Positions 5,793-20,603 of a stretch of DNA of 20,766 nucleotides are shown here, one piece after another; the stretch's first letter is position 1, and each line of letters opens with the position of its first letter. The notes under the pieces were generated by a model. That model was not told the DNA's origin and did no database searches. It worked only from the letters and a program-made list of their open reading frames with translations. Location: positions 1 to 20,766 of the IMG/VR virus record IMGVR_UViG_3300030103_001877, one strand, 5' to 3'. Origin of the DNA: a virus. The translations under genes and the position numbers were made by a program.

Positions 5793-6983
5793 ATGATTGG
5801 AGTACAAGGCCCACTAAAAAACGGCAAGGTTTATAGAGTTGTTACATCTAACGGTTCAAAAGATTTTAATATTAATAAGTATGGTAAACGAGTTGCCAGA
5901 AAATTAGCACAAGACTATGCTGATGAATGGAATGATGCTGTCAAAACTGACACAACTTATTTAATAAATGCTGATTATACAGTCAATGAGATTATAGATA
6001 AGTTTATAATAGAGTTTGAAAAGTTAGTTGATTTGCCAAAACCTAAACGTGTAAAGGCATCATTGTCTGGTTACAGAAATCTATTAAAACGAGTGTCAGA
6101 CACAGAGTATGGCAACAAACATTACACTGTTGTTATGCATCATTGCTTGCAAATAGAAAAAGAATTGTCAAAAACATGGTCAACTGATGCCGTACATAAG
6201 ACAATGAAAGCATTAAAATATGCGTACACTACATGCAAAAAGTCTAAGATAATACAAGACAATCCAATGTCAGACTACATATATGATAGTGGTGCAACCA
6301 ATACTGATACAGATGAAGATGTTATTGAGGTTATAATACCTACAATAAATGAGTTTAATTCTATATTAAAAGTTGCTAGTCCTAAGTGGAGATTGTTTTA
6401 TAAGTTAGCTGCTACTACAGGTATGAGAGTATCTGAGCTGCGTGGTCTTACATTTAGTAATATAAATTTTATTGATAACTTTATATTGGTACGACAACAA
6501 GCAGATCAATCTAATAAATTAACAACCAGGTTGAAAACAAAACGTGCCAATAGAGACATACCATTGCACGAAGATCTTAAAAATGAGTTATTAAATTTAA
6601 GATCACAGATGGATGTTGTGCCAACCATAGGACATAACAGCCAGGTTAAAGGTGTCAAAACAGATTTGATATTTCCAAGTGCTGCTAATACACCTCACTC
6701 AAGACAACACATTTGGAATAAATTTGATAAATATAAGAAGGCAGCTGGTGTAAATTTTAAAGGATCTATTCATTGTTTAAGACACTACTATGCATCTAGT
6801 CTTATTGACCTTGCTAAGTTCCAAGGCAAAGAAGTCAGCACAATAGAAATATCTACAGTGCTTGGTCATGCATCATATACATTTACTGAAACTGTATATG
6901 GTCATTTGATTTACCCACTAAAAGATAGACAGAAACTTGTGCGTGACATATCAAGTGCAAGTAATTTTGCTTTTAGTTATTAA
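5793..6983 (+). CDS. int: Tyrosine site-specific integrase
   Basis: 396 residues. An N-terminal DNA-binding part includes a SAM-like core-binding domain (about 60-165). The C-terminal catalytic domain carries the tyrosine-recombinase residues: Arg212 (TTGMRVSELRGL), a Lys in the KTKRANRDIPL hairpin, His327-x-x-Arg330 (IHCLRHYYAS), His359 (VLGHASY) and nucleophile Tyr369 (TVYGHL). It would join attP to a host tRNA gene by a covalent 3'-phosphotyrosine intermediate. A tRNA-type attP lies just upstream of its operon. The last four bases overlap the convergent zinc-ribbon gene. All catalytic residues are present, so it should be active. Confidence 0.95.
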   Translation: MIGVQGPLKNGKVYRVVTSNGSKDFNINKYGKRVARKLAQDYADEWNDAVKTDTTYLINADYTVNEIIDKFIIEFEKLVDLPKPKRVKASLSGYRNLLKRVSDTEYGNKHYTVVMHHCLQIEKELSKTWSTDAVHKTMKALKYAYTTCKKSKIIQDNPMSDYIYDSGATNTDTDEDVIEVIIPTINEFNSILKVASPKWRLFYKLAATTGMRVSELRGLTFSNINFIDNFILVRQQADQSNKLTTRLKTKRANRDIPLHEDLKNELLNLRSQMDVVPTIGHNSQVKGVKTDLIFPSAANTPHSRQHIWNKFDKYKKAAGVNFKGSIHCLRHYYASSLIDLAKFQGKEVSTIEISTVLGHASYTFTETVYGHLIYPLKDRQKLVRDISSASNFAFSY

Positions 6984-7195: not shown

Positions 7196-7560
7196 GACTG
7201 CTTAATCTTGTATGGATCTGTATTGAGCTTTGGTGTTTTTTCTGGTTGGTTGCCACATAAAATATCAACTACATTTTTTTCAACATAGTTTGTCACTGCA
7301 CCACAATAACTATCTTTAGTTAAGGTATCTGCAATTTCTTTCATAGGGCAGCCGTATTGCAATAGCAATGAAACGAGCTTACCTGATGCTGTAAGTTCAC
7401 GACCAAGTTCTGTTTCTTCTTTTTTTAATTTAATCCAGGAGCCAATTATTTTTAATCCAGCTTCTGTTTCTTGATAATCCAACAGACTTATCACACGTCT
7501 GTCATTTATGTTCAGCCTGGTGGCTACGGACTTCATTCTGTTTGGTACTTTTATTCTCAT
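7192..7560 (-). CDS. TSCPD-domain-like phage protein
   Basis: 122 residues. The run IKVPNRMKSVATRL at the start and the pattern LGRELTASGKLVSLLLQYGCP followed by MKEIADTLTKD resemble stand-alone TSCPD-type proteins of alphaproteobacterial phages and prophages. The TSCPD domain is otherwise known from B12-dependent ribonucleotide reductases. No reductase core is present, so any role in nucleotide metabolism is unproven. ATGA overlaps on both sides place it in the leftward operon. Confidence 0.65.
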   Translation of the reverse strand: MRIKVPNRMKSVATRLNINDRRVISLLDYQETEAGLKIIGSWIKLKKEETELGRELTASGKLVSLLLQYGCPMKEIADTLTKDSYCGAVTNYVEKNVVDILCGNQPEKTPKLNTDPYKIKQS

Positions 7561-7757
7561 ACTAATTTAATTGATCTAGCTTTTGCCGGTATGTATGAAA
7601 TCTCATTGCGTTCTGACAATCGTTTGATCATCATGTGTGCTGTGCTTTTTGATTTCCATTGCATGTGATTAGATATTTCTTGAAAGCTCGGACTGTACCC
7701 ATGGTCATTCCAAAACTCTTTTATAAAATCTAAAGTTCTTTTTTGTGTACTGGTCAT
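7557..7757 (-). CDS. LexA-like DNA-binding domain without a protease domain
   Basis: 66 residues that match the N-terminal winged helix of LexA along the whole length. TQKRTLDFIKEFWNDHGYSP is the first helix and turn, FQEISNHMQW is the second helix, KSKSTAHMMIKRLSERN is the recognition helix, and EISYIPAKARSIKLV is the wing ending. LexA family proteins are normally about 200 residues, with a C-terminal S24 self-cleavage domain; here the protein stops after the DNA-binding part. It therefore cannot be inactivated by RecA-stimulated self-cleavage. It may compete with host LexA or act as a phage regulator. Embedded in the recombination operon by 4-base overlaps. Confidence 0.8.
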   Translation of the reverse strand: MTSTQKRTLDFIKEFWNDHGYSPSFQEISNHMQWKSKSTAHMMIKRLSERNEISYIPAKARSIKLV

Positions 7758-10094: not shown

Positions 10095-10700
10095 TTATTT
10101 TTTATTTGGTGTCAGTAAGGCTTTAGCCATCTGAACGTGAATTATCTTATTAACTTTATATGTATGCCAAGTGTGTGTCTCAGCATTGTATATAGAAATC
10201 ATTTGACCATTTGGGTCATCATAACCATTATATTCACCTATTACTTGTAAACCGTCTTTAAAAGTAAACAGTGCAAATCCTTCATCTAAAATTTTTGGAT
10301 TAAATTGATGTGTGCGTTTTTCAAACACATAAACATACTGGTTCCACTGTCCATACTTATGATCAATAATGTAAAAAAGTGAGTTATTGTGCCATTCTTT
10401 AGGTGCTACAATAAATATATTTTCCTTACATTTTTCTACTATTAAATTACTAATCTTGCCATCTACTTGTTTGTAACGATCAGATGGTTTCTCATAAAAA
10501 TCTCTCCAATCCAGGTCATACAATTCTGCAATGGCTTTTGCTTTGTGTACTGACAAATCACGATGTCCATTAACTACCTTGCTAAATGCTTCACGACTAA
10601 AGCCAAGTTTCTGACACAATTCAGTCTGATTTATTTTGTTACGAAACAAAACATCCTTAACTGACATGTTACCTGTAAATGGGTTGCTTATCTTAGCCAT
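10095..10700 (-). CDS. CI-like repressor with N-terminal XRE helix-turn-helix
   Basis: 201 residues. Residues about 23-62 (INQTELCQKLGFSREAFSKV and the following NGHRDLSVHKAKAIAELYD) form an XRE-type helix-turn-helix. The C-terminal ~90 residues (EGFALFTFKDGLQVIGEYNG ... WHTYKVNKIIHVQ) are beta-rich and recall the outline of the S24 peptidase fold of CI/LexA, but I see no Ser-Met nucleophile motif and no matching Lys. It may dimerise without self-cleavage. It is divergent from a Cro-like gene, the normal lysogeny-switch arrangement, and has a strong promoter. It would keep lytic genes off in lysogens. Confidence 0.82.
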   Translation of the reverse strand: MAKISNPFTGNMSVKDVLFRNKINQTELCQKLGFSREAFSKVVNGHRDLSVHKAKAIAELYDLDWRDFYEKPSDRYKQVDGKISNLIVEKCKENIFIVAPKEWHNNSLFYIIDHKYGQWNQYVYVFEKRTHQFNPKILDEGFALFTFKDGLQVIGEYNGYDDPNGQMISIYNAETHTWHTYKVNKIIHVQMAKALLTPNKK

Positions 10701-14064: not shown

Positions 14065-14259
14065 ATGGATCCACCCATGGATGAAGATCTTAAAGATTTA
14101 ATTGCAATGGTGTTTTATGACGATGGCACAAAGAGTGTGTTTATAAACATCACAGGCTTTCGTAATTCTATACACGGTAGAGATGTGTCCGAGCATATAT
14201 GCAATCAATTAAATATAGACCTGATGGATCTATACGGTGATCAGCCAACATTACACTAA
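14065..14259 (+). CDS. Small acidic protein of unknown function
   Basis: 64 residues, acidic (DPPMDEDLKDLIAMVFYDDG). The ribosome site AGGAAA lies before the ATG at 14065; an inner Met at 14077 is possible. Its stop shares one base with the large-terminase start. No family recognised; position suggests a packaging accessory. Confidence 0.65.
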   Translation: MDPPMDEDLKDLIAMVFYDDGTKSVFINITGFRNSIHGRDVSEHICNQLNIDLMDLYGDQPTLH

Positions 14260-15539
14260 TGCAAATAACAATTCCGTACAGCCCACGAGAGCTGCAACAA
14301 GAAATACATACAGAGTTAAGCAAACACAGATGGGCGGTACTCTCAATTCATCGGCGTGCCGGAAAATCCGTTTTATGTATTAACGAATTAATTAAACGAG
14401 CTTTAACTAACGATATGTGGAACCCCAGGTACGCATACATCGGCCCGACATACAAACAAACAAAAGCAATTATATTTGACTATTTAAAATTTTATGCCGG
14501 TGTCATACCTGGAACCAAATTTAACGAACAAGAACTAAGCTGCACGTTTCCAAACGGTGCTAAGATTGTATTGCTTGGTTCTGAAAACCCAGACAGTTTA
14601 AGGGGTAGTTACTTTGATGGTATCATCTGTGATGAGTACGCACAAATTAATCCACGGCTGTTTCCTGAAGTCATTAGACCAGCTCTATCAGATAGAAAAG
14701 GTTTTTGTTACTTCGTTGGCACACCCCAAGGAATGTCAAATGATTTCTATGCTAAGTACCAACACGGACTAAAAGATAAAACGTGGTACACAAAAATAGC
14801 AAAAGCATCTGAAACAAACATTGTTGATGAAGATGAATTAGAAGCAGCTCTTGAGCTGATGGGTAAGAATAAATACAGACAAGAGTTTGAATGTGATTGG
14901 GTAGCAGCATTAGAAGGTGCTATTTACGGTGACGTTATAGAAAAGATAGAAGATCGAAAACAAGTTGGCCGTGTACCTTATGATCCGACCTACCAGGTCA
15001 GCACAGCATGGGATATTGGCATATCAGATAAAACAGTCATTATATTTTTTCAACAAGTAGGCAAAGCCATACACCTTATTGACTACTATGAAAGCAGTAA
15101 CGAAGGACTGCCCCACTATATTAATTTAATAAATAGCAAAGATTACGTTTACAACAACCATTACGGCCCACACGATTTAGAACAACGTGAGTTTACAAAC
15201 GGTAAATCAAGACGTGAGATTGCATACGAGCTGGGCTTACGATTTAAAATTGTACCTAAGCTCAGCATAGAAGATGGAATACACTATACACAACTGTTGC
15301 TTAACCGTTGTTGGATAGATGTCGACAATTGTAAGAAACTGATAGATGCCTTAAGGAACTATCACCGCAAGTACAATGACACCTTGCAAACCTTTAATTC
15401 TAAACCTGTGCATGATTGGTCAAGTCATGCCTGTGACAGCATGAGAGTTCTAGCTGTAGGCTTAGAAGAATTACGAGATGACAATCAGATTAAACAACAA
15501 ACAGCTGACAACAGCTACAACCCATTAGGAATACAATGA
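14259..15539 (+). CDS. terL: Terminase large subunit (ATPase and nuclease)
   Basis: 426 residues. ATPase half: Walker A variant IHRRAGKS (30-37), Walker B IICDEYA (Asp125, Glu126), coupling motif YFVGTPQG (151-158). RNase-H-like nuclease half: Asp252 (TAWDIGISDK), Asp306 (YGPHDLEQ) and Asp393 (SHACDSMRVLA) as metal ligands. This is the motor that drives DNA into the head through the portal and cuts it. Its length is typical. It starts one base into the preceding stop and its stop overlaps the next ATG (ATGA). All key residues are intact. Confidence 0.95.
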   Translation: MQITIPYSPRELQQEIHTELSKHRWAVLSIHRRAGKSVLCINELIKRALTNDMWNPRYAYIGPTYKQTKAIIFDYLKFYAGVIPGTKFNEQELSCTFPNGAKIVLLGSENPDSLRGSYFDGIICDEYAQINPRLFPEVIRPALSDRKGFCYFVGTPQGMSNDFYAKYQHGLKDKTWYTKIAKASETNIVDEDELEAALELMGKNKYRQEFECDWVAALEGAIYGDVIEKIEDRKQVGRVPYDPTYQVSTAWDIGISDKTVIIFFQQVGKAIHLIDYYESSNEGLPHYINLINSKDYVYNNHYGPHDLEQREFTNGKSRREIAYELGLRFKIVPKLSIEDGIHYTQLLLNRCWIDVDNCKKLIDALRNYHRKYNDTLQTFNSKPVHDWSSHACDSMRVLAVGLEELRDDNQIKQQTADNSYNPLGIQ

Positions 15540-15733
15540 GTATATTTAAAGCACCAAAAATGCCACCTCCACCAAAACCTAGAGTTATGCTGACACCATC
15601 GGGATCGATGGCAAAAGAAGATCCAAAGGTACAGGAAAAAAGAAGGCGTGGCAAAAAAGCAACCATACTGACATCAAACAGTGGATTGCAAAACAAAGAC
15701 GATGATTCATACAAACCATCACTACTAGGATAA
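15536..15733 (+). CDS. Small basic virion-region protein with KPSLLG tail
   Basis: 65 residues: a Pro-rich start (KAPKMPPPPKPRVM), a basic centre (KRRRGKKATILTSNSGL) and the tail YKPSLLG. The ILTS..GL plus C-terminal LLG pattern is one I associate with small proteins near portal genes in podoviruses. It resembles the product of 16585-16788 (SSLIETTSMGLGG ... YKPTLLS), so the two may be distant paralogues. Role unknown; probably a virion or assembly factor. Confidence 0.7.
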   Translation: MSIFKAPKMPPPPKPRVMLTPSGSMAKEDPKVQEKRRRGKKATILTSNSGLQNKDDDSYKPSLLG

Positions 15734-15743
15734 GGACAACACT

Positions 15744-15914
15744 ATGGCTACAAAACCAGGGCTTTACGCCAACATTCATGCAAAACGCAGAAGAATCAAA
15801 GGGGGTTCAGGTGAGAAAATGAGAAAACCTGGATCACCAGGATCACCAACTGCTGCTAATTTTAAACGAGCTGCAAAGACAGCAAAGAAACCAAAGAAAA
15901 CATTAATGGGTTAA
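15744..15914 (+). CDS. Small basic virion-region protein (GLYANIHAKR type)
   Basis: 56 residues with an AAGGA ribosome site. The sequence KPGLYANIHAKRRRIKGGSG followed by EKMRKPGSPGSPTAANFKRA is a pattern common to small phage proteins in the terminase-portal region. More than a third of the protein is Lys, Arg or Gly, suggesting an extended, DNA- or surface-binding peptide. It ends in KKTLMG, close to the tails of three neighbours. Function unknown. Confidence 0.7.
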   Translation: MATKPGLYANIHAKRRRIKGGSGEKMRKPGSPGSPTAANFKRAAKTAKKPKKTLMG

Positions 15915-15918
15915 TTTT

Positions 15919-16050
15919 ATGAAACAAATAAAACCAAAAACAAAATTAAAAGGCAAACAAAAAAAAATTGATGCAAATAATAATAACAAAATAGATGCAC
16001 AAGATTTTGCATTACTAAGAAAAAAACCTAAAAAAACTTTATTATCATAA
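15919..16050 (+). CDS. 43-residue basic protein with an EF-hand-type loop
   Basis: Basic N-terminus (MKQIKPKTKLKGKQKK), then DANNNNKIDAQDF, then ALLRKKPKKTLLS. The 12-residue loop has Asp1, Asn3, Asn5, Ile8, Asp9 and Asp12, the ligand and hydrophobic positions of an EF-hand calcium loop, followed by Phe and a short helix. Position 6 is Asn rather than the usual Gly. One loop with one helix recalls dockerin half-repeats. Five bases after the preceding gene; weak ribosome site. Calcium binding is predicted only from the motif. Confidence 0.65.
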   Translation: MKQIKPKTKLKGKQKKIDANNNNKIDAQDFALLRKKPKKTLLS

Positions 16051-16060
16051 GGAGAAAGCC

Positions 16061-16156
16061 ATGCCATACGGATCAGGAACATACGGCTCAACTAAAGGTA
16101 GACCACCAGTAAAAAAAACAAAAAAGAAAAAAACCAAAAAACCATACGGTAAATAA
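16061..16156 (+). CDS. 31-residue Lys-rich peptide (MPYGSGTYGS type)
   Basis: A good ribosome site (GGAG) precedes the ATG. MPYGSGTYGSTKGRPP is followed by a run of Lys and Thr, and it ends KKPYGK. Short peptides of the MPxGxGTYGSxxGRP type occur in several phages near portal genes as I remember them. It could be an extended virion peptide or a DNA-binding tail. No assigned function. Confidence 0.65.
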   Translation: MPYGSGTYGSTKGRPPVKKTKKKKTKKPYGK

Positions 16157-16158
16157 AA

Positions 16159-16314
16159 ATGGTTAAAGAGCTAACTAAAAGACAAGCTAAAACTCTAAAA
16201 AAGCATTCTGTACATCACACAAAAAAACACATGTCATTGATGGAAAAGAAAATGCTAGAAGGCAAAACATTTACAGCTGCACATAAAATAGCACAAAAAA
16301 AAGTAGGAGCATAA
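16159..16314 (+). CDS. 51-residue basic helical protein
   Basis: Two predicted helices rich in Lys and His (LTKRQAKTLKKHSVHHTKKH and MEKKMLEGKTFTAAHKIAQK). LTKRQxxTLKKHS...HMxxM...GKxFTxAHKxAxKKVG is a repeated pattern of small phage proteins in this genome position as I know it. Starts two bases after the preceding stop, without a clear ribosome site, so translation is probably coupled. Function unknown. Confidence 0.68.
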   Translation: MVKELTKRQAKTLKKHSVHHTKKHMSLMEKKMLEGKTFTAAHKIAQKKVGA

Positions 16315-16315
16315 T

Positions 16316-16570
16316 GTGGCTCTTAAAAAACATCAAAGTCCTTCTGGTGGATTAAACGCAGCTGGTAGAAAACATTTTGGAGTTAAAGCTCCAGTAAGCA
16401 AAGGAACTAATCCAAGACGTGTTTCATTTGCAGCACGATTTGCTGGAATGAAGGGGCCTATGAAAAAGCCAGATGGCAGTCCTACACGAAAAGCATTGGC
16501 ATTAAAAAAATGGGGTTTCGGTAGTGTTGCTGCTGCACGAAACTTTGCAAACAGAAATAAAAAATCATAA
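16316..16570 (+). CDS. DUF6321-like basic virion-region protein
   Basis: 84 residues from a GTG start that follows the previous stop by one base. The motif SPSGGLNAAGRKHFGVKAPV, then RRVSFAARFAGMKGPMKKPD, then GSPTRKALALKKWGF matches the DUF6321 outline. The protein is strongly basic. A role in the virion or DNA packaging is suggested by position. No enzymatic motif. Confidence 0.72.
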   Translation: MALKKHQSPSGGLNAAGRKHFGVKAPVSKGTNPRRVSFAARFAGMKGPMKKPDGSPTRKALALKKWGFGSVAAARNFANRNKKS

Positions 16571-16584
16571 TTAAGGAGAACACT

Positions 16585-16788
16585 ATGAGTGGAATAATAG
16601 GAGGTCGTAAACCAGCACCAGTTAAAATGACACCAACTGAAGTGCAAACGACTAAAACTCAAGACATAGCACAAGATGTCCAAGCTGCTAAGAAAAAGAA
16701 AAAGCCAGGACAATCTTCATTGATTGAAACAACATCAATGGGTCTTGGTGGTGACGCACCAACATACAAGCCAACACTGTTAAGCTAA
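16585..16788 (+). CDS. Small basic virion-region protein with KPTLLS tail
   Basis: 67 residues with a good ribosome site (AAGGAG). A Lys-rich centre (AAKKKKKPGQSSLIE) and the tail YKPTLLS resemble the product of 15536-15733, so the two bracket the micro-gene cluster. It ends just before the portal ATG. A portal- or head-associated role is plausible; not shown. Confidence 0.68.
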   Translation: MSGIIGGRKPAPVKMTPTEVQTTKTQDIAQDVQAAKKKKKPGQSSLIETTSMGLGGDAPTYKPTLLS

Positions 16789-16789
16789 T

Positions 16790-18385
16790 ATGAAAAACAA
16801 AAACGCAGAAATGCTAGTGAACCGTTTTGCTACACTTAGAACAAATCGGTCAACATGGGAAAGTCATTGGCAAGAAATAGCTGATTACATGCTACCTCGT
16901 AAAGCTGACATCACTACACAACGTACTCGTGGTGATAAGAGATCGGAAGTTATATTTGATGGAACCGCCATCCACGCATTAGAGCTATTAAGTTCAAGTT
17001 TACATGGCATGCTGACTAACGCAGCTTCACCTTGGTTTACACTTGCATTTAAAAATCCATTGTTATCTGAAAACGATGAAGCTCAAGAATGGTTAGACTC
17101 CGTAACGCAAGATATGTACGTTGCATTTAACAGATCCAACTTTCAACAAGAAATACAGGAACTGTATCAAGATCTAATCTCTTTTGGCACATCTGCCATG
17201 TTTGTTTCCCCTGATGAAAAAAACTTAGTTCGTTTTAATACAAGACACATTAAAGAAATATTTATTGCTGAGAATGAAAAAGGACAAGTTGATACTGTCT
17301 TTAGACATTTTACATTAAGTGCAAGAGCTGCTGTTAATTTATTTGGTGAAGAAAACGTAGGTGCTGGCATTTTAAATAAATTTAAAAAAGATGTTGATGC
17401 AGATGTAAGCATATTGCACGCAGTCATGCCACGAGACACATACAACGAAAAGAAAAAAGATACACAGAACATGCCATTTAAGTCATGTTATGTAGATCCT
17501 GATGATGTTCACATGATAAGTGAAAGTGGTTTCAATGAGTTTCCATACGTTGTGCCACGTTATTTAAAAGCTAGTTATGAAATTTATGGAAGATCACCTT
17601 CTATGAATGCACTGCCTGACGTAAAGATGTTAAACAAAATGTCTGAGGTAACAATCAAAGCTGCACAGAAACAAATAGATCCTCCCCTTATGGTTCCTGA
17701 TGACGGTTTTATGTTACCAGTCAGGACAGTGCCAGGTGGTTTAAACTTCTACCGTTCAGGTTCAAGAGATCGTATAGAGCCATTACAGATTGGAGCAAAC
17801 AATCCTGTAACTGTTAACATGATCCAGGACAGACAACTTGCAATACAAAAAACATTTTATGTAGATCAGTTGCTAACATCACAAGGTGGCAACATGACAG
17901 CAACAGAAGTGTTGCAACGTAATGAAGAAAAAATGAGATTGCTAGGCCCAGTGTTAGGTCGATTGCAATCAGAACTATTACAGCCGTTGATTGAACGGGT
18001 GTACAATATCTTAGAACGACAAAACATATTCAGACCAGCACCTGAAATATTAGCAGAACAAAATGTTGAGATTGAATATGTAAGTCCACTAGCCAAAGCA
18101 CAAAAATCAAGTGATCTTAATTCCGTTATGCGTGGAATTGAAATCTTTGGAGCTATGTCACAATTTGCTCCAGTGCTTGATTATTTGGACTCTGACGGTT
18201 TGGCTAAGTATGTGCAAAATGTTCTAGGACTACCAGCTAAGATTATGAAATCTGATGCTGAAGTACAACAAGTCAGACAAGAACGGCAACAAGCCGAACA
18301 ACAAGCAGCGGAACAACAAGAGTTGATGCAACAAGCACAAGCAGCTGGTGCAGCAGCTCCGATGGTCAAAGCTGTCAACAACTAA
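16790..18385 (+). CDS. Portal (head-to-tail connector) protein
   Basis: 531 residues, the normal length for the podovirus head-tail connector family (PF12236-type). Signature stretches are NRSTWESHWQEIADYMLPRK near the start, IFDGTAIHALELLSSSLHGM, LISFGTSAMFVSPDE, and QTCPFK-like loops, then MTATEVLQRNEEKMRLLGPV in the second half. The C-terminal ~40 residues are Gln/Ala-rich (VRQERQQAEQQAAEQQELMQ). Twelve copies form the DNA entry channel that binds terminase and later the tail. The small genes before it and the scaffold and capsid after it give the usual head module order. Confidence 0.93.
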   Translation: MKNKNAEMLVNRFATLRTNRSTWESHWQEIADYMLPRKADITTQRTRGDKRSEVIFDGTAIHALELLSSSLHGMLTNAASPWFTLAFKNPLLSENDEAQEWLDSVTQDMYVAFNRSNFQQEIQELYQDLISFGTSAMFVSPDEKNLVRFNTRHIKEIFIAENEKGQVDTVFRHFTLSARAAVNLFGEENVGAGILNKFKKDVDADVSILHAVMPRDTYNEKKKDTQNMPFKSCYVDPDDVHMISESGFNEFPYVVPRYLKASYEIYGRSPSMNALPDVKMLNKMSEVTIKAAQKQIDPPLMVPDDGFMLPVRTVPGGLNFYRSGSRDRIEPLQIGANNPVTVNMIQDRQLAIQKTFYVDQLLTSQGGNMTATEVLQRNEEKMRLLGPVLGRLQSELLQPLIERVYNILERQNIFRPAPEILAEQNVEIEYVSPLAKAQKSSDLNSVMRGIEIFGAMSQFAPVLDYLDSDGLAKYVQNVLGLPAKIMKSDAEVQQVRQERQQAEQQAAEQQELMQQAQAAGAAAPMVKAVNN

Positions 18386-18763: not shown

Positions 18764-19591
18764 ATGTCAGAAGATCAGGTAACGGCTGTCGAAGAACAAA
18801 GCCAACCGTCTGAGTCAACTGCAACAGAAGCTCCAGTAGCAGAAGCTAGCTGGAGAGACAGTTTACCAGAGGAACTAAAAACAAATGCATCACTAGAAAA
18901 ATTTAGTGACGTATCAACATTAGCAAAAAGCTACATTAATGCTGAGTCAATGATTGGCAAAGACAAGATGGTAGTGCCAGGAGCTAATACAACTGAAGAA
19001 GAATGGAGTGACATCTACGATAAATTAGGTAGGCCGTCAGATCCAAATGGTTATGAACTAAAAGCAGAACTTGCTGAAGGTGAACAAATTGATGAACAAT
19101 TGATGAGTAGTTTTAAAGAAACAGCTCACAAGCATGGATTGTCACCAGCACAAGCACAAGGACTGCTTGATTATTATAATAGCATATCAAGTCAATCGAT
19201 GGTTGATATGGAAAACAATGCTATACTAGCACAAGAAGATAGCTCAAGAACATTGCGTGAAGAATGGGGCCGAAGTTACGAAGAAAATCTTAACAAGGCA
19301 TCCAATGTTGCAAAACAATTCTTAGGTGAAGATATATTTAGCGTACAACTTGCAGATGGATCTTTACTTGGTGACAACGCATCATTGATCCGTGGTTTGA
19401 ATAAAATTGCAACTGTCGTATCAGAAGATACTTTAGTTGGTGATAAAGATTCAGCTGCGTCAAATGCTGGTATGCAACAACAAATAAACGATTTAACTGC
19501 ACCTAATAGTCCGTACTGGAACAAGATGGATCCTCAACACGAGGCAACGGTGCAAAAAGTTTTAGCATTGAGAGAAATAGTCTCAGGCTAA
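18764..19591 (+). CDS. Capsid scaffolding/assembly protein
   Basis: 275 residues, acidic, with an N-terminal disordered part (VEEQSQPSESTATEAPVAEA). The outline WRDSLPEELKTNASLEKFSD, YINAESMIGKDKMVVPG, WSDIYDKLGRPSDPNGYEL and a helical second half (HGLSPAQAQGLLDYYNSISS) matches the phage capsid assembly/scaffold proteins that precede the major capsid gene. It would shape the procapsid and leave before packaging. Ribosome site AAGGAG. Confidence 0.85.
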   Translation: MSEDQVTAVEEQSQPSESTATEAPVAEASWRDSLPEELKTNASLEKFSDVSTLAKSYINAESMIGKDKMVVPGANTTEEEWSDIYDKLGRPSDPNGYELKAELAEGEQIDEQLMSSFKETAHKHGLSPAQAQGLLDYYNSISSQSMVDMENNAILAQEDSSRTLREEWGRSYEENLNKASNVAKQFLGEDIFSVQLADGSLLGDNASLIRGLNKIATVVSEDTLVGDKDSAASNAGMQQQINDLTAPNSPYWNKMDPQHEATVQKVLALREIVSG

Positions 19592-19730: not shown

Positions 19731-20603
19731 ATGTCAACACAAATAACCACAGCCTTCGTAGAACAGTATAGTTCTAACGTGGCTATGTTAGCTCAACAAA
19801 TGGGAAGCCGTTTGAGAGCTGCTGTGGATGTTGAAACTGTGACGGGCAAAAATTCGTTCTACGATCAGGTCGGAATTACTGCGGCCCAACAAAGAACGTC
19901 AAGACATGCAGATACGCCACAAATTGACACTCCGCACTCAAGACGTAGATTAAGTTTGTCCGATTACGAATGGGCCGATTTAATTGACGATCAAGACAAA
20001 GTAAGAATGCTAATTGATCCAACTTCTTCTTATGCAAAAGCTGCTGCTGCTGCAATGGGAAGATCAATGGATGATGTTATCATTTCTGCTTTACAAGGAT
20101 CAGCACAAGCTGGTGTTGCTGGTGCAACTTCTGTTGCATTACCAACTGCTAGTAAGTTTTCAACAGCATCTCAAACTGATGGACTAACAATTGCAAAAAT
20201 GATTGCAGCTAAAAAGTTCTTCGATTTGAATGATGTAGATCCTTCAATCCCTAGATACATTGTATGTGGGGCAACTCAGATTGCAGACCTACTTGGCACA
20301 ACTCAAGTCACAAGTTCAGATTTTGCAACTGTAAAAGCTCTAGCGGCTGGTGATGTAGATTCCTTTATGGGTTTCAAATTCATTATGTCTAATAGACTTA
20401 ACTTTGACGCAACAAATACGGATGACCGTCTAATATTTGCATTTACACAAGATGCTATCAAACTTGGAGTTGGCAAAGACATCACTGCTAAAATTGATGT
20501 TCGACCTGACAAAAGTTATGCAACTCAAGTGTATACATGCATGAGTATTGGTGCGGTAAGAATGGAAGAAAATAAAGTATTCCAAATTCCGTGTGATGAA
20601 TAA
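19731..20603 (+). CDS. Major capsid protein
   Basis: 290 residues. It begins TTAFVEQYSSNVAMLAQQMG, with YEWADLIDDQDKVRMLIDPT as a typical capsid loop and QDAIKLGVGKDITAKIDVRP near the end. This is the Phage_capsid_2-like HK97-fold type seen in podoviruses. Hundreds of copies make the head shell. The scaffold gene directly upstream and an AAGGAG ribosome site support high expression. Confidence 0.85.
   Translation: MSTQITTAFVEQYSSNVAMLAQQMGSRLRAAVDVETVTGKNSFYDQVGITAAQQRTSRHADTPQIDTPHSRRRLSLSDYEWADLIDDQDKVRMLIDPTSSYAKAAAAAMGRSMDDVIISALQGSAQAGVAGATSVALPTASKFSTASQTDGLTIAKMIAAKKFFDLNDVDPSIPRYIVCGATQIADLLGTTQVTSSDFATVKALAAGDVDSFMGFKFIMSNRLNFDATNTDDRLIFAFTQDAIKLGVGKDITAKIDVRPDKSYATQVYTCMSIGAVRMEENKVFQIPCDE

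Follow-up and report, generated by a model that had tools for sequence, protein, structure and literature searches.

A recurrent EF-hand/dockerin-type module in a 43-residue basic protein encoded among phage head genes

We analysed a stretch of viral DNA of 20,766 nucleotides (IMG/VR record IMGVR_UViG_3300030103_001877, hereafter the window) and observed that the gene at 15919-16050 encodes a basic micro-protein of 43 residues carrying one EF-hand/dockerin-type loop. The conservation of this loop, its modularity and its head-gene neighbours in several lineages are established at the level of sequence, and the loop probably binds calcium. Most likely, the protein is a basic peptide associated with the head or portal which folds upon taking up calcium, an assignment that we make tentatively and rate a little below an even chance.

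RESULTS

The micro-protein gene and its surroundings

The micro-protein gene lies within a run of seven small ORFs that extends from the terminase gene to the portal gene. The features of this region are as follows.

14259-15539, + strand: terminase large subunit (Pfam PF03237, phrog_2)
15536-15733, + strand: small protein ending in PSLLG (phrog_831 match)
15744-15914, + strand: small basic protein ending in TLMG (phrog_16028 match)
15919-16050, + strand: gene of the basic micro-protein, 43 aa, with ATG start, TAA stop and one EF/dockerin-type loop
15946-15966, + strand: pre-loop element LKGKQKK, conserved, which precedes loop-less peptides too
15970-16005, + strand: 12-residue loop D-A-N-N-N-N-K-I-D-A-Q-D, from D18 to D29 and followed by F30
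15997-16020, + strand: exit helix, residues 27-34, the sole helix of the AlphaFold2 model
16036-16047, + strand: C-terminal tail TLLS, one instance of the common [ST]L[LM][GS] tail
16061-16156, + strand: Lys-rich ORF of 31 aa beginning with MPYG, which ends in TLMG in some relatives
16159-16314, + strand: KHSVHHTKKHM protein of 51 aa (phrog_31838 match; in P-SCSP2 a homolog adjoins the EF gene)
16316-16570, + strand: DUF6321 protein (PF19846, 60.1 bits)
16585-16788, + strand: small protein immediately before the portal, ending in PTLLS (weak phrog_831 match)
16790-18385, + strand: portal / head-tail connector (PF12236, 506 bits; phrog_332)
18764-19591, + strand: capsid assembly (scaffold) type protein (phrog_3742, of unknown function; phrog_458, labelled protease; sub-threshold PF05396)
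19731-20603, + strand: major capsid protein (PF19821, 309 bits; phrog_3437)

The product of 15919-16050, MKQIKPKTKLKGKQKKIDANNNNKIDAQDFALLRKKPKKTLLS, contains 14 Lys/Arg against 3 Asp/Glu residues. Its segment DANNNNKIDAQDF matches the EF-hand loop pattern of the PROSITE PS00018 type. The earlier note had read an EF-hand-type loop into a 43-residue phage protein of the head module. We confirmed both the ORF and the pattern match, which is the only one among the 136 ORFs of at least 35 aa in the window, and the gene does sit between terminase and portal. Residue-shuffled ORFs gave an expectation of 0.0335 pattern matches per window; when the 43-mer alone was shuffled 200,000 times, a match arose 7 times. 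The loop carries Asn, not Asp or Gly, at positions 5 and 6, and is in this respect a variant of the canonical loop. Read in register, the reverse strand of 15919-16050 is full of stops. A 62-aa antisense ORF with a TTG start (15903-16091, − strand) overlaps the micro-protein gene in another frame.

Elsewhere in the window, the ORFs at 5793-6983, 7557-7757 and 10095-10700 resemble by eye a tyrosine integrase, a LexA-type N-terminal domain and an HTH repressor, respectively, which suggests that the phage may be temperate. The region 252-2345 encodes a long repetitive fibre-like protein, whose SDERVKKNI end looks by eye like an intramolecular-chaperone domain.

Conservation of the ligand positions and extent of the module family

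A portal search of IMG/VR was used to collect relatives, and the best 80 of 350 confirmed loci were kept. An ortholog with the loop was detected by pattern in at least 22 of these best 80 of 350 loci; many of the 80 end short upstream, so that 22 is a lower bound. A loop-masked HMM recovered the same orthologs in the portal set, namely 12 distinct proteins, all above 50 bits and with the loop intact, and nothing loop-less above ~10 bits in that set, where the next match stood at ~10 bits. The invariant positions in a 13-sequence alignment include G12, Q14, K15, K16, D18, N20, N22, D26, D29, L33 and R34. We obtained a pooled pairwise dN/dS of ~0.23 (14 sequences, 27 codons), which indicates purifying selection. 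By portal, the nearest isolates are Pelagibacter phages, with an identity of up to ~64%, and the head regions of three of these isolates (L001-L003) contain no ORF with the loop pattern.

An alignment-based search of viral contigs confirmed 430 of 560 candidate stretches, and 80 loci were kept. The module is thus widespread in phage contigs, and the description of such a micro-protein as unusual, given in the earlier note, is not supported. The module has the consensus LKGxQKK[IL], followed by DxN-x-[DN]-[GN]-[KR]-I-xxx-D and F..[LM]. We read the ORF as this phage module of ~25 residues in stand-alone form, made up of a basic pre-loop element, a single loop and a short exit helix.

An anchor-only scan was performed with LKG[NK]QKK, the element preceding the loop, so that the loop itself was unselected. 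This gave 120 anchors in 119 loci among the matches listed. A full in-frame EF loop followed 82 of the 120 anchors among the matches listed (51 distinct); the others among these matches led into 2 ligand-less loops (L173, L235), 8 LPxxLxxxI peptides and 28 stretches of unrelated sequence. Sequences of this set were termed family-like when a hydrophobic residue stands before and after the loop, a filter that leaves out the L173 and L235 relatives, which are one residue longer. We observed D at position 1, N/D at 3, N/D at 5 and D at 12 in 51 of the 52 distinct family-like sequences, the single exception being an LP-type peptide, and positions 2, 4, 10 and 11 vary. The alignment with relatives, proposed previously as a check, thus bears out that the calcium-ligand positions are kept. 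The 93 distinct modules from all loci gave the same ligand picture, with G most often at position 6 (50 of 93), as in canonical loops. This tally admitted only loops with D at 1 and D/E at 12, and a good many loci came from patterns requiring N at 3 or 5; for this reason, the ligand claim rests on the anchor-only set.

By tblastn against the phage collection, the 43-mer had no match even at E 10, probably owing to low-complexity filtering of its Asn/Lys runs, and other family-like queries did match. Bacterial and archaeal genomes yielded 44 pattern stretches, none of which was confirmed, at a sensitivity that is low for so short a query; there is thus no evidence of cellular copies. An unannotated member is encoded in cyanophage P-SCSP1u, and HTVC023P encodes a member as well. 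Searches of open-licence papers returned none that deals with this module, with DUF6321 or with the C-terminal tail described below.

Two further groups were seen in these collections. A second recurrent peptide, LKGxQKKLPxxLxxxI, has the same pre-loop element and no EF loop (L174, L202, L216, L219, L242, L249, L271 and L276, the last with one extra G). A separate group of EF modules has a C-terminus like G[YF]GAART...LQDE...PGK.LDYYKD[IV]M (L183, L187, L193, L238, L256 and L086).

Similarity of the loop to EF-hands and dockerins

Against Pfam Dockerin_1 (PF00404), the 43-mer scored 20.5 bits (E 5e-4), below the cut-off of 22.9, and against EF-hand_1 (PF00036) it scored 15.3 bits, below the cut-off of 25.4. 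Dockerin_1 was matched at E ≤ 0.01 by 14 of 14 diverse members. At least one relative, that in L134, exceeds the Dockerin_1 cut-off (25.2 versus 22.9 bits), and a tandem copy in L104 reached 34.6 bits over positions 3-54 of the 57 of this profile. In the PDB, the top sequence matches (E 7e-4) fall on the second repeat of 2vn5 and of 2vn6, whose chains bear the name endoglucanase A and which we take to be dockerins; next came chains named type I dockerin, e.g. 5nrm. The window protein has one loop and not the two loop-helix repeats of a dockerin; tandem copies occur only in some fused relatives, and a second loop of the FPDLxxDGKVT type was seen once, in L225. The window protein was not filed as a dockerin because its score lies below the Pfam cut-off and it has a single repeat. 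The module appears closest to half a type I dockerin, and it would work, if at all, like half a dockerin.

AlphaFold2 produced a weak model of the 43-mer (mean pLDDT 68.7, pTM 0.24), consisting of the loop and one helix (27-34) with no entering helix, for which Foldseek returned no match in the PDB. The model of the tandem copy (pLDDT 52.5) was too weak for interpretation.

A cassette of small genes near head genes

The micro-protein is part of a cassette found repeatedly in regions of head genes and made up of small proteins, most of them rich in Lys. When six cassette proteins were compared, DUF6321 was the most constant neighbour of the stand-alone EF genes. For 29 of 46 distinct stand-alone proteins (up to 105 aa), the same strand carries a DUF6321 gene no more than 1.5 kb away; these 29 comprise 14 of 14 in the lineage of the window and 15 of 32 others.

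A head gene (terminase, portal, scaffold, capsid or prohead, from a reference set of 21 proteins) is present in the locus of 43 of the 93 distinct modules; in the loci of the other 50 no head gene of this set was found, over flanks of at most a few kb per side, which may reflect the small set or the often short contigs. The module is encoded between the terminase and a phrog_332 portal in loci of the window type, L134 and L145; directly after a phrog_38 terminase in L129, L144, L147 and L247 (a protein of L144 without PHROG match was left out as portal); after capsid genes in L223 and L229; and 5′ of the terminase, on contigs with a T4-type protease and portal, in L197 and L203. In the Prochlorococcus phage P-SCSP2 (L087), the EF, KHSKHHSKKHM and DUF6321 genes follow the order of the window, but they lie between scaffold and capsid. 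In the P-SCSP1 phages, the gene is away from the head genes and DUF6321 is not nearby, and L158 is an exception in which the identified neighbour is a tail sheath gene. The association of the module with head genes is supported.

The gene is accessory, being present in 21 and absent from 18 of the 39 full terminase-portal intervals. In L249, an LP-type loop-less LKGxQKKLP peptide is encoded just upstream of homologs of the 15744 and DUF6321 proteins, and KITRGD forms occupy the same slot in L056 and L053. The loop is therefore replaceable, as the ligand-less L173 and L235 relatives, the LP-type peptide and the KITRGD forms exist. The accessory nature of the gene and the ligand-less relatives and slots (L173, L235, L249, L056) indicate that calcium is hardly indispensable to these phages. 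The part in virion stability or entry that the earlier note gave to seawater calcium is conjectural.

A C-terminal tail shared by unrelated small proteins

We observed that the tail [ST]L[LM][GS] is present in 101 of 153 distinct proteins encoded between terminase and portal (39 full intervals, window included) and in 0 of 121 control ORFs downstream of the portal, with interval ORFs taken from 25 aa and control ORFs from 35 aa. It is spread over 8 credible families of otherwise unrelated small proteins. Clustering into families used sequences trimmed by 8 residues at the C-terminus and covered proteins longer than 30 aa. A ninth tail family (3 proteins with the end VVSLLS), still within the 101, looks like an out-of-frame ORF. 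A Fisher value for the tail overstates independence because the members are related; the point is the spread over unrelated families. In the EF family, 13 of 13 distinct proteins bear the tail, in 21 of the 39 loci, and the largest tail family (51 proteins) has a longer common C-terminal stretch, of 33 columns between two subsets. The tail-bearing proteins of the window are those at 15536-15733, 15744-15914, 15919-16050 and 16585-16788; others occur in L024, L046, L056 and further loci.

Three of four long portal-adjacent cassette proteins of other loci weakly match the T7 gp7.3 family phrog_1320 (E values of 0.0017, 0.01 and 0.022 for L024, L046 and L014), and the one in L056 has no phrog_1320 match. 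The portal-adjacent group shares the N-terminus of gp7.3 (hhalign 95.1%, over 19 basic, low-complexity columns). L024:4595-4996, L046:4659-4997 and L014:1706-2119 look like diverged gp7.3 proteins. In T7, the C-terminal loop of gp7.3 docks on the nozzle and its two Lys contact the DNA end (PMC11784390, excerpt). This parallel suggests that the shared tail may be a docking peptide. Profile similarity of the micro-protein itself was found neither to T7 gp7.3 (0.2%) nor to the phrog_831-type neighbours (2.3%). We hypothesize that the micro-protein docks by its tail.

Fused copies and prohead proteases

Fused modules lie in long phage proteins; in two cases the long protein is a Peptidase_S77 prohead protease that bears the module at its C-terminal end (L225:1857-2900, − strand, 82.3 bits; L258:7384-9174, + strand, 80.4 bits). 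The L225 protease has a second EF-like loop, DLSGDGKVTRKD. Of 50 distinct fused modules, 37 have a motif [LIVM]xE among the 6 residues that precede them, against a background of 11%; 14 of the 64 distinct fused modules, having fewer than 14 upstream residues, were excluded from this count, and with similar flanks collapsed it becomes 21 of 31. The motif was present in 17 of 17 cases in loci with T4-type head genes versus 20 of 33 in the remaining loci, where the L156-type terminase was counted as T4-type, as it sits with T4-type protease and portal matches in L197, L203, L232 and L252. T4 and giant-phage prohead proteases cleave after Glu within a short motif (PMC10052503 and PMC9026906, both in excerpt).

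Most fused copies cannot be called T4-like. Among 12 records in which fused or stand-alone copies occur, and which may be fragments, the HTVC008M protease matched in 2 and its terminase in 3; the 114,873-base record of L159, which has a fused copy, contains no match to either. In L107, the long protein with the fused module matched nothing in the phage collection.

A further two cassette proteins likewise occur as pieces of longer phage proteins. The products of 15744 and 16316 align to different positions of phrog_11180 and of phrog_28131, and L167 and L194 each have a single ORF that joins homologs of the two; in Synechococcus phage ACG-2014f, DUF6321 forms the end of a protein of 849 aa encoded between gp16 and gp17. 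Some long basic proteins look like strings of modules (EF loop, PSAYA stretch, DUF6321) that elsewhere are separate small genes (L289:1667-4216, of ACG-2014f, between gp16 and gp17; L107:3713-5443; L194:387-1112).

DISCUSSION

Proposed role and alternative explanations

As a head- or portal-associated peptide that folds on calcium, the micro-protein would be packed in the head or portal region with its lysines on the packaged DNA, like small internal head proteins. In phages with T4-type heads, the peptide would be cut from a longer precursor at the preceding [LIVM]xE sites. In the cytoplasm, where calcium is sub-micromolar, the loop would stay empty; it would fill at the millimolar calcium encountered after lysis, and this filling may fold the loop and helix and fix the peptide in place. 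In the lineage of the window, the KKTLL[GS] tail, common to the neighbouring small proteins, may dock at one portal/tail site. A calcium-gated virion peptide, which would dock by KKTLL[GS] at the portal-tail site of the gp7.3-like neighbours, lock on the DNA end when its loop takes up calcium outside the cell and let go in the low-calcium cytoplasm, appears to us quite unlikely. If it were true, the cassette would be a set of exchangeable plug peptides with one common docking tail, and in larger phages the prohead protease would process related modules that are made as precursors.

A peptide that resides in the head need not require calcium in vivo: the micro-protein could be a basic head peptide that binds nucleic acid, its EF-type loop serving only as a rigid turn and a cap for the helix. 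This explanation, which we consider somewhat unlikely, agrees with the strongly basic composition (14 K/R versus 3 D/E in 43 aa), with the absence of the gene from 18 of 39 intervals and with the LKGxQKK element standing before 8 LP-type and 2 ligand-less sequences in the 120 anchors among the matches listed. It is opposed by the ligands kept at positions 1, 3, 5 and 12 in 51 of 52 family-like anchor-set sequences while 2, 4, 10 and 11 vary. A protein acting in the infected cell, e.g. a terminase or prohead assembly factor that does not stay in the virion, would explain why the gene adjoins that of the large terminase in L129, L144, L147 and L247 and why no recognised head gene is near 50 of the 93 distinct modules. 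However, cytoplasmic calcium is low, which makes a calcium loop odd there, and the fusion to the prohead protease together with the protease-like sites before fused copies points to the prohead interior; we regard a purely intracellular role as unlikely.

The profile and structure-database matches bring in a true dockerin, which would pair with a cohesin and tether phage parts as in cellulosomes. The top PDB matches (2vn5, 2vn6, 5nrm) and the tandem copy, which covers nearly the whole of Dockerin_1, would fit, but the window protein has one loop instead of two, and we hold this to be very improbable. That the loop is a chance motif in an AT-rich, Asn/Lys-rich ORF is scarcely credible. The window has a GC content of 37% and there is an Asn run in the loop, whereas only 0.03 matches are expected per window, dN/dS is ~0.23 and the module occurs in loci of 27-45% GC. 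Shuffling, the loop-masked HMM and the anchor-only scan all argue against chance, and it was rejected.

Certain phages depend on calcium or disintegrate in EDTA, and it can be unknown which virion protein is responsible. For such calcium dependence, a short EF/dockerin-type module that recurs in phage head cassettes offers a concrete candidate, and the tail common to unrelated small proteins suggests one docking site. P-SCSP1u, which encodes a member, has the public cryo-EM maps EMD-35174 and EMD-35175, so that the question can be tested directly; the main text of its structure paper does not contain the words calcium, divalent or small protein, which is uninformative either way. In TP-84, a screen of the putative structural proteins for an EF-hand signature found none (PMC5889276, excerpt).

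Comparison with known systems

The positions of the window loop fit the PS00018-type pattern of EF-hands, and the window protein differs from these in scoring below the Pfam cut-off, in being unpaired and in having no entering helix in the weak model. The phage lysin LysGH15 likewise has an EF-hand-like calcium site in a phage protein; it is a lysin and not a head-cassette micro-protein (PMC4022735, excerpt).

In T4, IPI-IPIII and the processed core peptides are small prohead-core proteins that the protease cuts after Glu (PMC9026906, excerpt). Like these peptides, fused EF modules often follow a [LIVM]xE site, and two are on the protease itself. In contrast to this, the window phage has a separate gene. 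The Glu-site feature does not apply to this stand-alone form; processing of the fused forms is putative. To T7 gp7.3, the micro-protein bears a resemblance only via the short KK[ST]L tail.

Among phage proteins, the product of VvAW1 gene 40 has been described as dockerin-like (PMC3558961, excerpt). From type I dockerins the window protein differs in its single repeat, its phage context and its basic flanks, and it has in common with them the loop spacing, Asp at position 12, a helix directly after the loop, and the profile and PDB matches.
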